Of a DNA stretch of 45,598 bases, positions 1-4,217 are shown one piece after another. Both the position numbers and the translations under genes were made by a program. Source of the stretch: Deltaproteobacteria bacterium (GTDB taxonomy: Bacteria > Desulfobacterota > Dissulfuribacteria > Dissulfuribacterales > UBA3076). The notes beneath the pieces were generated by a model. The model saw only the letters and a program-made list of their open reading frames with translations. It was not told the origin of the DNA and made no database searches. The number at the start of each line of letters is the position of its first letter. The first letter of the stretch is position 1. Location of the stretch: assembly GCA_027004715.1 (NCBI GenBank), contig JALTHG010000090.1:1-45598 (forward strand). The letters run 5' to 3'.

Positions 1-188
1 CTAGTAAAAACTCCGCCGTCATTAACAGACCCCTGCATATACAACGCTTCCTTCAATGGAACACACTCGAAGGCCGGCGTGACCCACGGGCGGGGGGCTT
101 GGGGTTCTCCGGGTTCACCCTGAGCAGTTCGGCTTCGCTCTCTGTAAACTCTGTCAAAGGGTTGGGTTTCAATGGTCTCGGTGTTCAT
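1..188 (-). CDS. Partial RiPP precursor-like peptide, lasso/PqqA-like leader (cut by window edge)
   Basis: An open frame starts at an ATG at 186-188 behind a very strong ribosome binding site (AAGGAGG at about 194-200, minus strand) and runs off the window after 62 codons. The peptide begins MNTETIETQP and has a proline/charge-rich middle, then a segment PWVTPAFECVPLKEALYMQG (residues 34-53), followed by SVNDGGVFT. The W-x-x-P-x-F pattern resembles the YxxP leader motif recognised by PqqD-type proteins in lasso peptide systems and also the start of PqqA. It is the next gene after the B2 protease on the same strand, which is where a substrate would fit. The usual lasso hallmark, Thr at the second-last leader residue followed by Gly and an acidic residue 7-9 positions later, is not seen in the part present. 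The core may lie outside the window. No homologue is recognised; the role is inferred from position and leader. Confidence 0.6.
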   Translation of the reverse strand, partial: MNTETIETQPFDRVYRERSRTAQGEPGEPQAPRPWVTPAFECVPLKEALYMQGSVNDGGVFT

Positions 189-198
189 TTCATTCCTC

Positions 199-212
199 CT
201 TAGTTAGTTGGC
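199..212 (-). repeat. 14-bp leader repeat, copy 1 (before precursor-like gene)
   Basis: The minus-strand sequence GCCAACTAACTAAG sits directly before the ribosome binding site of the precursor-like gene. An exact copy lies at 2005-2018 directly before the HPr-kinase-like gene. Both are followed within a few bases by ATGAAC. The repeat contains TAA stops, so it may also close upstream reading frames. Confidence 0.75.
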
Positions 213-262
213 GATTAAGGGTATCGGGTATCACGTGTCAGGTCTCACGGTCTGCGCTACGC

Positions 263-736
263 TCACTCGGCACCACGCACTTCGCACGCCGTTTCCGGGT
301 AACGGGCCAGGATGTGGTAGGTCTCAGTTGTGGGGATGCCGACTACGCCCTGCGCACCGTCCTGCACCCAGACATGGGCGGTGGAGCCGTTTTTGCTGCC
401 GGTGGTCACCCCGTAGTACAGGGTGGTACTCACGCCGCGCCGCCGCAGCATGGCCTGCGCCGTTATGCCGCGCGGGAAACACACCGTCTCGCCTGGCAAA
501 AGTCTTGCGGCTTTTTCGATAGCCCAGGCCACCTCCTTTCGCAGGCGTTCGCGTTGCCTGCCTTCCACTTGCGGCCCGCGCACGGGCCGATTGAAAAAAG
601 GTTTCAATTGCCGAAAGGGTAAAAACCGCAGGCTCAGCCGCGCCAGGGTCAGCCCAAGGACTGCTTCAAGCAGCAGGCCGCGCCGTTCCGGGGTCTGGCG
701 CAGAAATTTGAGGAGAGAGTTTGTTATTCGGCGCAT
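263..736 (-). CDS. Lasso-type RiPP leader protease, B2 protein (transglutaminase-like)
   Basis: This 157-residue protein matches the transglutaminase-like B2 family of lasso peptide biosynthesis. In known systems the B2 protein is the cysteine protease that removes the leader peptide from a precursor delivered by the PqqD-like B1 protein. The visible catalytic pieces are Cys86 in the motif GETVCFPRG, followed by A-x-x-x-L-x-R-R-G, and His121 in AHVWV, with Asp126 a candidate third residue. The N-terminal half is basic and helical, as usual for the family. The start codon lies inside the end of the B1 gene (13-bp overlap), so the two are probably translationally coupled. The precursor-like peptide follows about 75 bp downstream. 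The family call is firm; whether the product is a true lasso peptide is not, because no cyclase is in view. Confidence 0.85.
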   Translation of the reverse strand: MRRITNSLLKFLRQTPERRGLLLEAVLGLTLARLSLRFLPFRQLKPFFNRPVRGPQVEGRQRERLRKEVAWAIEKAARLLPGETVCFPRGITAQAMLRRRGVSTTLYYGVTTGSKNGSTAHVWVQDGAQGVVGIPTTETYHILARYPETACEVRGAE

Positions 737-1107
737 GGTTTGTCAATCTTCCTCTTATCAGGAGGGGATTGCTTCGTCACCCCGTTTGGGTTCCTCGCAA
801 TGACATCGTTTACTAATTTGATCAGCCCGGCTTTGTGGAGGCCGTGGAGCAGATGGAGGACTTCGCGCAGGCAGGTGTCGGCGTCTACACTGAATTCCTG
901 GCAAAGACGCTCACAGACGGCTTCGACAGAGGCAGGTTCTGCGATCAGTTCCCAGACCCGGCTGGAGGTCTCATTCAGCACATAATAGTATCCGGCATCT
1001 TCATCGAGGGCCAACATCTCGTCGTGGACTCTGGTGAAGGGGATGTCCACGGCCCGATGGAGGCGGGTTTTGGGAGTAATTCGATTTGATGTGATACAAA
1101 TCTCCAT
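724..1107 (-). CDS. PqqD-like RiPP recognition protein (B1) with repeat-derived C-terminus
   Basis: The first 97 or so residues form a PqqD-type RiPP recognition element: an N-terminal strand region (RITPKTRLHRA), the segment MLALDEDAGYYYVLNETSSRVWELI, and a helical C-terminal part ending HLLHGLHKAGLIKLV. Such proteins bind the leader peptide and hand the precursor to the protease or cyclase. The last 30 residues (from about NDVIARNPNG) are not family-like and come from a dispersed repeat in the DNA (761-804). The gene starts inside the 3' end of the kinase-like gene (107-bp overlap) and overlaps the B2 start by 13 bp. Gene order kinase, B1, B2 matches that of kinase-containing lasso clusters such as paeninodin. 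Confidence 0.85.
   Translation of the reverse strand: MEICITSNRITPKTRLHRAVDIPFTRVHDEMLALDEDAGYYYVLNETSSRVWELIAEPASVEAVCERLCQEFSVDADTCLREVLHLLHGLHKAGLIKLVNDVIARNPNGVTKQSPPDKRKIDKPCAE
761..804 (-). repeat. Dispersed CATTGCGAGG...GAAGCAATC repeat forming the end of the PqqD-like gene
   Basis: On the minus strand the segment reads TGTCATTGCGAGGAACC, then a G-rich middle, then GACGAAGCAATCCCC. This belongs to a widespread class of intergenic palindromic repeats in bacteria with TTGCGAG and GAAGCAA arms. Here it lies inside the reading frame and supplies the last 30 or so residues of the PqqD-like protein. No second copy was seen in this window, which fits a foreign origin for the left 2 kb. Confidence 0.6.
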
Positions 1108-2002
1108 TTTTCATCCAGTGATTTTGCAAGTAACGCACGGCCTGATCCATGAGGGCCAGATCCCTAGGGCGCTGGAACTGCCAGATGGGAATGCGCCGGA
1201 TCAGTTCCAGGCATTGGCGGTAATACCAGCCCATCTTGCCCATCGGCTCCAGCAGCGTGCCGCGATAGGTGGCCGCGCTGACCAATCCATGCAGGGCTGC
1301 CTGGCCGGTCCGTTGGGTGATGCCCAATTCGCCCCATTCCAGGACGTAGATGGCGTGTAATGGCAAGGGTTGAATCTGGCCGTTCCCGTCCAGCGGTAAA
1401 TAGAATTTCTCGAAGCGGTAGTGGTCGCGTACCATCGAGGGGGATTGCCAGCCCAGGGCATCGAGGGCGTCCCACCACAATTTCAGGTGACGGGCGGCGG
1501 GGTAGATCAGAGGCAGCCCCTGGGCGGGAATCTCGATGCGGGTCAGGTCATCGCTGACCAGGGGATGGCCTGCTTCCGTTAAATAAGCCGCCAGGGTAGA
1601 TTTGCCCTTCTGCGGATGAGCGCAAAAAGCAATCGCGCCATTGTCCACGCGCACCGCGCTGACGTGCAGCGCCAACAGCTCACGCTGGTAACACAGCGCG
1701 CCCCAGGCCGACCCCAACAAAAACAGGCGCACTTCCCGCCAACAGGTTCCGTGGTCAGGGGCAATGCGGATCTCACGGCCATGCGTCACCCGGTAAGCGC
1801 CCACTTCCGGCACACTGAAGCAGTACTCATCGGTGCTCACTATTGGGGCATCCGGCGCGGGCATTTCCCAGTCCCGCGAGCCGTTCTCCAGGCGAATGTA
1901 AACATCGGCCCCGTCTGAATCAGCGCATTCGAACGCGGCCCATTCCGGGATTGGAAGGGCCGATTGGATGTGCAGTCCGGCGTAGACGTAAGCGTAGTTC
2001 AT
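1001..2002 (-). CDS. HPr kinase/phosphorylase-like protein of a RiPP cluster
   Basis: This 333-residue protein resembles the HPrK C-terminal kinase domain proteins found in lasso peptide and related RiPP clusters. A P-loop is seen at about residues 127-137 (FCAHPQKGKST) and the HPrK-like acidic site at 149-153 (LVSDD). The N-terminal 110 residues are the usual strand-rich region of cluster-borne HPrK homologues. In paeninodin-type systems the kinase phosphorylates the precursor, which is the likeliest role here. The start ATG (2000-2002) follows the 14-bp leader repeat but lacks a clear Shine-Dalgarno sequence. The last 35 or so residues overlap the PqqD-like gene in another frame; this tail may be non-conserved, or a small frameshift may have removed the original stop. 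Confidence 0.75.
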   Translation of the reverse strand: MNYAYVYAGLHIQSALPIPEWAAFECADSDGADVYIRLENGSRDWEMPAPDAPIVSTDEYCFSVPEVGAYRVTHGREIRIAPDHGTCWREVRLFLLGSAWGALCYQRELLALHVSAVRVDNGAIAFCAHPQKGKSTLAAYLTEAGHPLVSDDLTRIEIPAQGLPLIYPAARHLKLWWDALDALGWQSPSMVRDHYRFEKFYLPLDGNGQIQPLPLHAIYVLEWGELGITQRTGQAALHGLVSAATYRGTLLEPMGKMGWYYRQCLELIRRIPIWQFQRPRDLALMDQAVRYLQNHWMKNGDLYHIKSNYSQNPPPSGRGHPLHQSPRRDVGPR

Positions 2003-2055: not shown

Positions 2056-2239
2056 AAGTTTCGGAGTTAATATATCAGCCTGTAATTAAAGAGTTTTTTC
2101 ATGCAACACACGAATTAGCTTTATGTTGCTACATTAAACGTATAATATAAACTATAATAGTTATATATTCTTATTGAATACTGCAACAAAAAATGTATTT
2201 TTACTTAATTTTCAAGAGGTTAATCCAACTCCGAAACTT
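2056..2239. repeat. AT-rich segment bounded by a 13-bp inverted repeat (possible MITE or excised element)
   Basis: AAGTTTCGGAGTT at 2056-2068 is matched by its exact reverse complement at 2227-2239. The 158 bp between is very AT-rich with no credible gene. The layout is that of a miniature inverted-repeat element or the ends left by a lost insertion sequence. The whole spacer 2019-2359 holds no coding region that I can support; promoters of the minus-strand RiPP genes may lie here but none is clear. Confidence 0.5.
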
Positions 2240-3210: not shown

Positions 3211-4038
3211 ATGCACAAGATGCTCTCAACTAAAAAAGAGAGGCCTCTAAGTCTGGAGATACTTGGAGCAGAATCTCTAGGGGTTCGTAGTCTCTGCTGT
3301 CTGGTAAGACTCGATAGACGTAAAATCGTTATTGATCCAGGGATTGCCCTGGGATATATGCGCAATGGCCTGCTTCCACATCCAACTCAGGTAGCAGTAG
3401 GGATAAAGGTCAGGCAAAAGATTATAGAGGCTCTAGAGACTGCTACAGATATTGTTTTCAGTCACTTCCATGGTGACCATATACTTTAGCCAATGCCAAC
3501 CCCTTTCAGCTCTCATTTCGGCAGATTCCGGCACATTGTCGAGATATACACTGTTGGAGCAAATCTAATGCAGACTTGACACCTAAAATTCTGCAGCGTC
3601 CATAGACCTGCGTGAACTCTTGGGCCTGAATATGGAGATTGCAGAGGACTGTTCAGAAGGGCCTCTGAGCTTTTCCAGTGCAGTGCCCCATGGCACATGA
3701 CCCGAATCGACATGGGAAGCCGTATCTTTGTTCATGCATCTGATATTCAGCTTTTGGATGCTGAGACCATAGACAAGATCTTGGAGTGGCAACCAGATAT
3801 TGTACTTACTTCTGGTCCACCTATCTATCTAAGATCACATAGTTATGTACAGCAGAGGCAGGCATGGGATAATGCTCTGCGTCTGGCACAGAACCTGGAT
3901 ATCCTTATCCTTGACCACCATCTACTCCGTTGTAGACAGGGTATCAGGTGGCTAGATAGCCTGAGAGAGGCTTCTGGAAGGAGAGTCTGTTGCAGTGCAG
4001 ACTTTATGGGTAGGCCACGTCTCTTTCTAGAGGCCTGA
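3211..4038 (+). pseudogene. Decayed metallo-beta-lactamase-fold protein (UPF0282-like)
   Basis: The 5' part starts at ATG 3211 behind GAGAAGGA and reads LEILGAESLGVRSLCCLVR, IVIDPGIALGYM and IVFSHFHGDHI, the N-terminal half of an MBL-fold hydrolase of the UPF0282 type. A TAG follows at 3487-3489. Homologous sequence then continues in other frames: ANANPFQLSFRQIPAHC, then SIDLRELLGLNMEIAEDC up to PHGT, then MTRIDMGSRIFVHASDIQ, PDIVLTSGPPIYL, ILILDHHLL and a C-terminus ending in TGA at 4036-4038. At least three frame changes are needed, so the gene is dead unless the sequence has several indel errors. The motif H-F-H-G-D-H and the later LDHHLL keep the metal-ligand histidines recognisable. Confidence 0.75.
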
Positions 4039-4168: not shown

Positions 4169-4217
4169 AAAAGCAGCCTGTAATCGGTTATCAATATGTA
4201 TATTTTTGTCATAGGAC

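Follow-up and report, generated by a model that had tools for sequence, protein, structure and literature searches.

A truncated, probably lasso-type peptide cluster with a kinase and an Ala(-2) leader at the edge of a deltaproteobacterial contig

The window, meaning the whole stretch of 45,598 nucleotides analysed, makes up all of contig C90, part of a bin of 1.44 Mb. The first 2 kb encode, on the minus strand, a kinase, a peptide-binding protein (B1), a protease (B2), and a nearly complete precursor gene (Table 1). This region probably represents one end, the one with the kinase, of a cluster for a phosphorylated lasso peptide. Such a cluster would be truncated where the contig stops and is best placed in a lasso subgroup that has a kinase and Ala at leader position -2; the composition of the region is foreign to the host. 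The first-pass annotation was right that a lasso-like RiPP cluster has its edge here, and its HPrK-like kinase, PqqD-like B1, B2, and small gene after B2 were all confirmed by open reading frames, Pfam, NCBIfam, and homologues.

Table 1. Features of the left contig edge, in forward-strand positions of the window
Feature	Position	Strand	Evidence and remarks
Precursor peptide gene, incomplete at the contig end	1..188	-	MNTETIETQPFDRVYRERSRTAQGEPGEPQAPRPWVTPAFECVPLKEALYMQGSVNDGGVFT + AG-; ORF list, homologous peptides in seven relatives
Core region (putative) with putative cleavage site	1..41	-	YMQGSVNDGGVFT(S); alignment of relatives, leader spacing
Leader region with RRE-binding motif WVTPAF and conserved LKEAL	42..188	-	Alignment of relatives and W-to-Thr(-2) spacing of paeninodin-type leaders
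Ribosome-binding site AGGAGGA	194..200	-	Sequence
B2 leader peptidase, transglutaminase-like	263..736	-	Pfam PF13471 65.5 bits; NCBIfam lasso_biosyn_B2 NF033537 78.3 bits (cut-off 33)
B1, discrete PqqD-like RRE	724..1107	-	Pfam PF05402 67.7 bits (cut-off 23.4); alignment
Palindromic repeat-like element across the 3' end of B1	767..804	.	GATTGCTTCGTC...TCGCAATGAC; sequence
HPrK-like peptide kinase, putative	1001..2002 (conserved part 1110-2002)	-	Homology, alignment, kinase tree, HPrK structure matches
Host-lineage repeat with 13-bp terminal inverted repeats	2056..2239	.	AAGTTTCGGAGTT; copies in same MAG and relatives; host DNA starts here

The precursor frame (3-188) is open-ended. Its final two bases, AG-, imply Ser or Arg as the next residue, and all seven complete homologues end in Ser followed by a stop, which makes the gene nearly complete. 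In one of them (L027), this C-terminal Ser is the only Ser or Thr of the putative core. The ribosome site, described at first pass as very strong, reads AGGAGGA and lies five bases before the ATG. An exact 14-base repeat (GCCAACTAACTAAG, minus strand) lies directly before the precursor (199-212) and again directly before the kinase (2005-2018), and was not present in the relatives fetched. A chance open reading frame was ruled out, as a peptide with the same leader is encoded at seven related loci, at six of them directly after B2.

Scanning genome contigs with an alignment of kinases gave 80 loci; a genome scan with the single kinase protein gave no match, and plasmid searches returned distant kinases only. 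The four nearest loci belong to an Acidobacteriaceae member (L027), a deltaproteobacterial MAG (L028), Anaerolinea (L029), and Chloroflexota (L030), with kinases 40-52% identical to that of the window, and each encodes a cyclase, kinase, B1, and B2, followed directly by the same-leader peptide. Whole-genome searches added L137, L138, and L130, the last being a second cluster carried by the L028 genome. In L138 the peptide adjoins a second kinase, and no B2 was found there by profile. In all, the kinase-based search yielded seven clusters with such a peptide, spread over several phyla (Acidobacteriota, Chloroflexota, and the one deltaproteobacterial MAG). In a quick tree of 109 kinases, the window and its seven relatives form one eight-member branch with a support of 100 and no other rows, in which L028 is the sister of the window and L027 is close. 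The family is rare: for the phylum of L030, a clade-level match turned up in 1 of the 400 genomes sampled, and for the class of L027 in 3 of 329, with the genomes used as queries included. No description of a clade of this LKEAL type was found in the literature searched, where most subscription journals were absent. In the L028 genome there are three similar loci with a kinase, the third of which (L131, in G425) falls in another kinase branch and has other candidate precursors.

An asparagine-synthetase-like cyclase is encoded in all seven relatives. For those tested (L027, L028, L030, and L130), the best NCBIfam match was the lasso cyclase model NF033535, at 330-401 bits and under the cut-off of 525. 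No cyclase is present on the window's contig, the exporter and the last precursor codon are absent from the window, and a cyclase search of the rest of the bin returned two weak asparagine-synthase matches only, all of which counts against the preferred reading. The absence of a cyclase on the kinase side had been correctly noted before; host-lineage repeats start about 50 bases upstream of the kinase. Since seven of seven relatives have a cyclase, its lack in the window is best explained by the contig end. The earlier suggestion of a different peptide class is therefore unsupported: all relatives combine a cyclase with a same-leader peptide, and this, together with an Asp at position 7 or 8 of the putative core, makes a variant lasso peptide the more likely product. 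Comparable peptides recur in seven clusters with a ring-closing enzyme, which points to an unusual branch of a known family and not to a new class.

It is improbable that the kinase, B1, and B2 phosphorylate and trim a linear peptide that never forms a macrolactam, as is the case for linear polyphosphorylated peptides (LPP) of Bacillota. A contig without a cyclase and an unusual first core residue would fit such a product, and cyclase-free kinase-RRE systems exist (PMC13381572), but the cyclase occurs in 7/7 clade members, and the linear family relies on a protease resembling signal peptidase and on a YxxP leader, not on the lasso-type B2 and WxxP leader found here.

All eight members of the clade share the leader W-x-[TK]-P-x-[FLV]-x4-L-x2-A-L, with WxxPxF as the RRE-binding motif of the window precursor. 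The first-pass annotation had regarded Trp instead of Tyr as non-canonical, but Trp is established as usual in paeninodin-type leaders, with a shared spacing that places it at -15 (PMC13381572), and occurs in 43 of the 47 Bacillota precursors compared here. The missing Thr that it also pointed out is real: leader position 14, counted from Trp as 1, is Ala in 8/8 clade precursors and Thr in 47/47 of the Bacillota type. With Trp at -15, position 14 corresponds to -2 and position 16 is the first of the core. Ala is also found at position 14 in nine alphaproteobacterial precursors; because these were picked by eye for having it, their count adds no independent support. In the alphaproteobacterial kinase clusters L016:9989-10216 and L031:9027-9227, which include an asparagine-synthase gene, the candidate precursor core (GPSTFSSGQAAHVS or GPSTFGSGQAAHVS) has neither Asp nor Glu, which would preclude a normal lasso ring.

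Judged by this spacing, the window leader would end after Leu49. Counted from the leader, the putative core reads YMQGSVND-GGVFT(S), with Asp at position 8 if it starts at Tyr and at position 7 if it starts at Met; the earlier claim that no acidic residue lies at 7-9 took the Gly of GSVNDGG as the first core residue. A core start at 16 places an acidic residue at core positions 7-9 in 6/8 clade precursors (Bacillota controls, 40/47), and a start at 17 does so in 7/8 (controls, 47/47). The two starts cannot be told apart in the clade, an ambiguity shared by the Bacillota precursors. A start at 18, following the spacing of BsfA, was rejected, with an acid at 7-9 in just five of eight. Further points count against the preferred lasso reading: Ala stands in for Thr(-2), two relatives need a 10-residue ring with start 16 and one needs a 6-residue ring with start 17, and the implied first residue of the window core, Tyr or Met, is outside the set seen experimentally (Gly, Cys, Ser, Ala, and, in metanodin, Asn; PMC12670498).

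The kinase shows full-length homology to those found in lasso clusters, and HPrK structures match its P-loop region. Library matches are weak, with HprK_rel_A (HprK-related kinase A, TIGR04352) scoring 38.7 bits, under the cut-off of 200. His113, Lys134, Ser135, Asp151, and Asp152 are retained, but two of the three P-loop Gly residues are lost, as are two in L028, which counts against a phosphorylated lasso product. Lasso B1 proteins are among the PDB matches of B1, and its scores with the narrow NCBIfam lasso PqqD models are under their cut-offs. The last residues of B1, about 27, are an extension from the repeat-like insertion. Alignment shows that Cys86 and His121 of B2 are conserved.

For the preferred truncated lasso cluster, we infer phosphorylation, cleavage site, ring, and threading. 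B1 would bind the WVTPAF leader and present the precursor to the kinase, which would phosphorylate its C-terminal Ser; B2 would cleave after LKEAL or one residue further; and an off-contig cyclase would link the newly exposed N-terminus with the side chain of Asp, giving a Y1-D8 or M1-D7 ring followed by about six tail residues. In paeninodin-type systems the kinase targets the precursor's C-terminal Ser (PMC9266682), but the related kinase BsfK targets Ser3 and not the C-terminus (PMC10368454), which counts against a C-terminal target. More speculatively, the clade might make very short phosphorylated lasso peptides (13-16 residues) with rings starting at residues not seen before (for example Tyr, Leu, or Lys), B1 and B2 reading Ala-Leu instead of Thr(-2), and sugar and sulfate in some clusters. 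If true, an entire branch of the lasso pathways with kinases, in phyla that are poorly cultured, would manage without Thr(-2), which would inform how B1/B2 pairs read leaders and imply that precursor finders demanding Thr-x-Gly overlook such peptides.

The GC content of the first 2 kb is 58-60% vs about 47%, and the GC3 of B1, B2, and the kinase is 0.63-0.71 vs about 0.5, higher than in all other window genes tested; the short peptide frame has a GC3 of 0.55. A host-lineage repeat begins at about 2049-2056 and is followed by IS3-like remnants, and sequence in common with a same-genus genome starts at 4212. No close B2 or kinase was found in host relatives, whose weak B2 matches and kinases were rejected as close kin of the window genes. 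The foreign composition indicates either horizontal transfer or an assembly chimera. It is nearly an even question whether the contig end of another organism was joined to the host contig at the repeat, in which case the cluster is real but not in the host. The composition, the lack of close genes in host relatives, a junction within about 50 bases of the host repeat, and the palindromic element, which has no other exact match in the bin, all favor such a joining, but horizontally acquired clusters next to insertion elements look alike, and the clade itself is scattered over several phyla. A chimera concerns the origin of the DNA and is compatible with a truncated lasso cluster. Further along the contig, 3211-4038 holds a broken metallo-beta-lactamase-fold gene with similar DNA in other genomes of the host family, and at the right contig end (44975-45598) an adenylate kinase gene has a GC3 of 0.60, higher than other host genes.

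With the paeninodin-type clusters of Bacillota, the window shares an HPrK-like kinase, a discrete B1, B2, and a WxxP leader, and its relatives also share the C-terminal Ser and the cyclase. The clade differs from them in having Ala and not Thr at -2, short cores of 13-16 residues, a precursor that sits after B2 and not after the cyclase, and, in some relatives, genes for family-2 glycosyltransferases and sulfotransferases; earlier work also records a sulfotransferase gene next to lasso clusters with a kinase (PMC8498205). The LPP systems (PMC13381572) have in common with it an HPrK-like kinase, a discrete RRE, and a similar leader motif, and differ in their protease, YxxP motif, and lack of a cyclase. 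Kinase lasso precursors with Ile or Val at -2 are established in Bradymonadales (BsfA) and have been reported in Acidobacteriaceae and Sphingomonadales as well (PMC10368454); they share with the window the kinase, lasso B1 and B2, and a non-Thr penultimate leader residue. BsfA has YxxPxL at -17 to -12 and Gly1, whereas in the window clade the motif is WxxPx[FLV] and the aligned residue is Ala. Putative Ala(-2) precursors had already been predicted (Kretsch 2023, as cited in PMC10368454), so the window represents a variant and not a new class.
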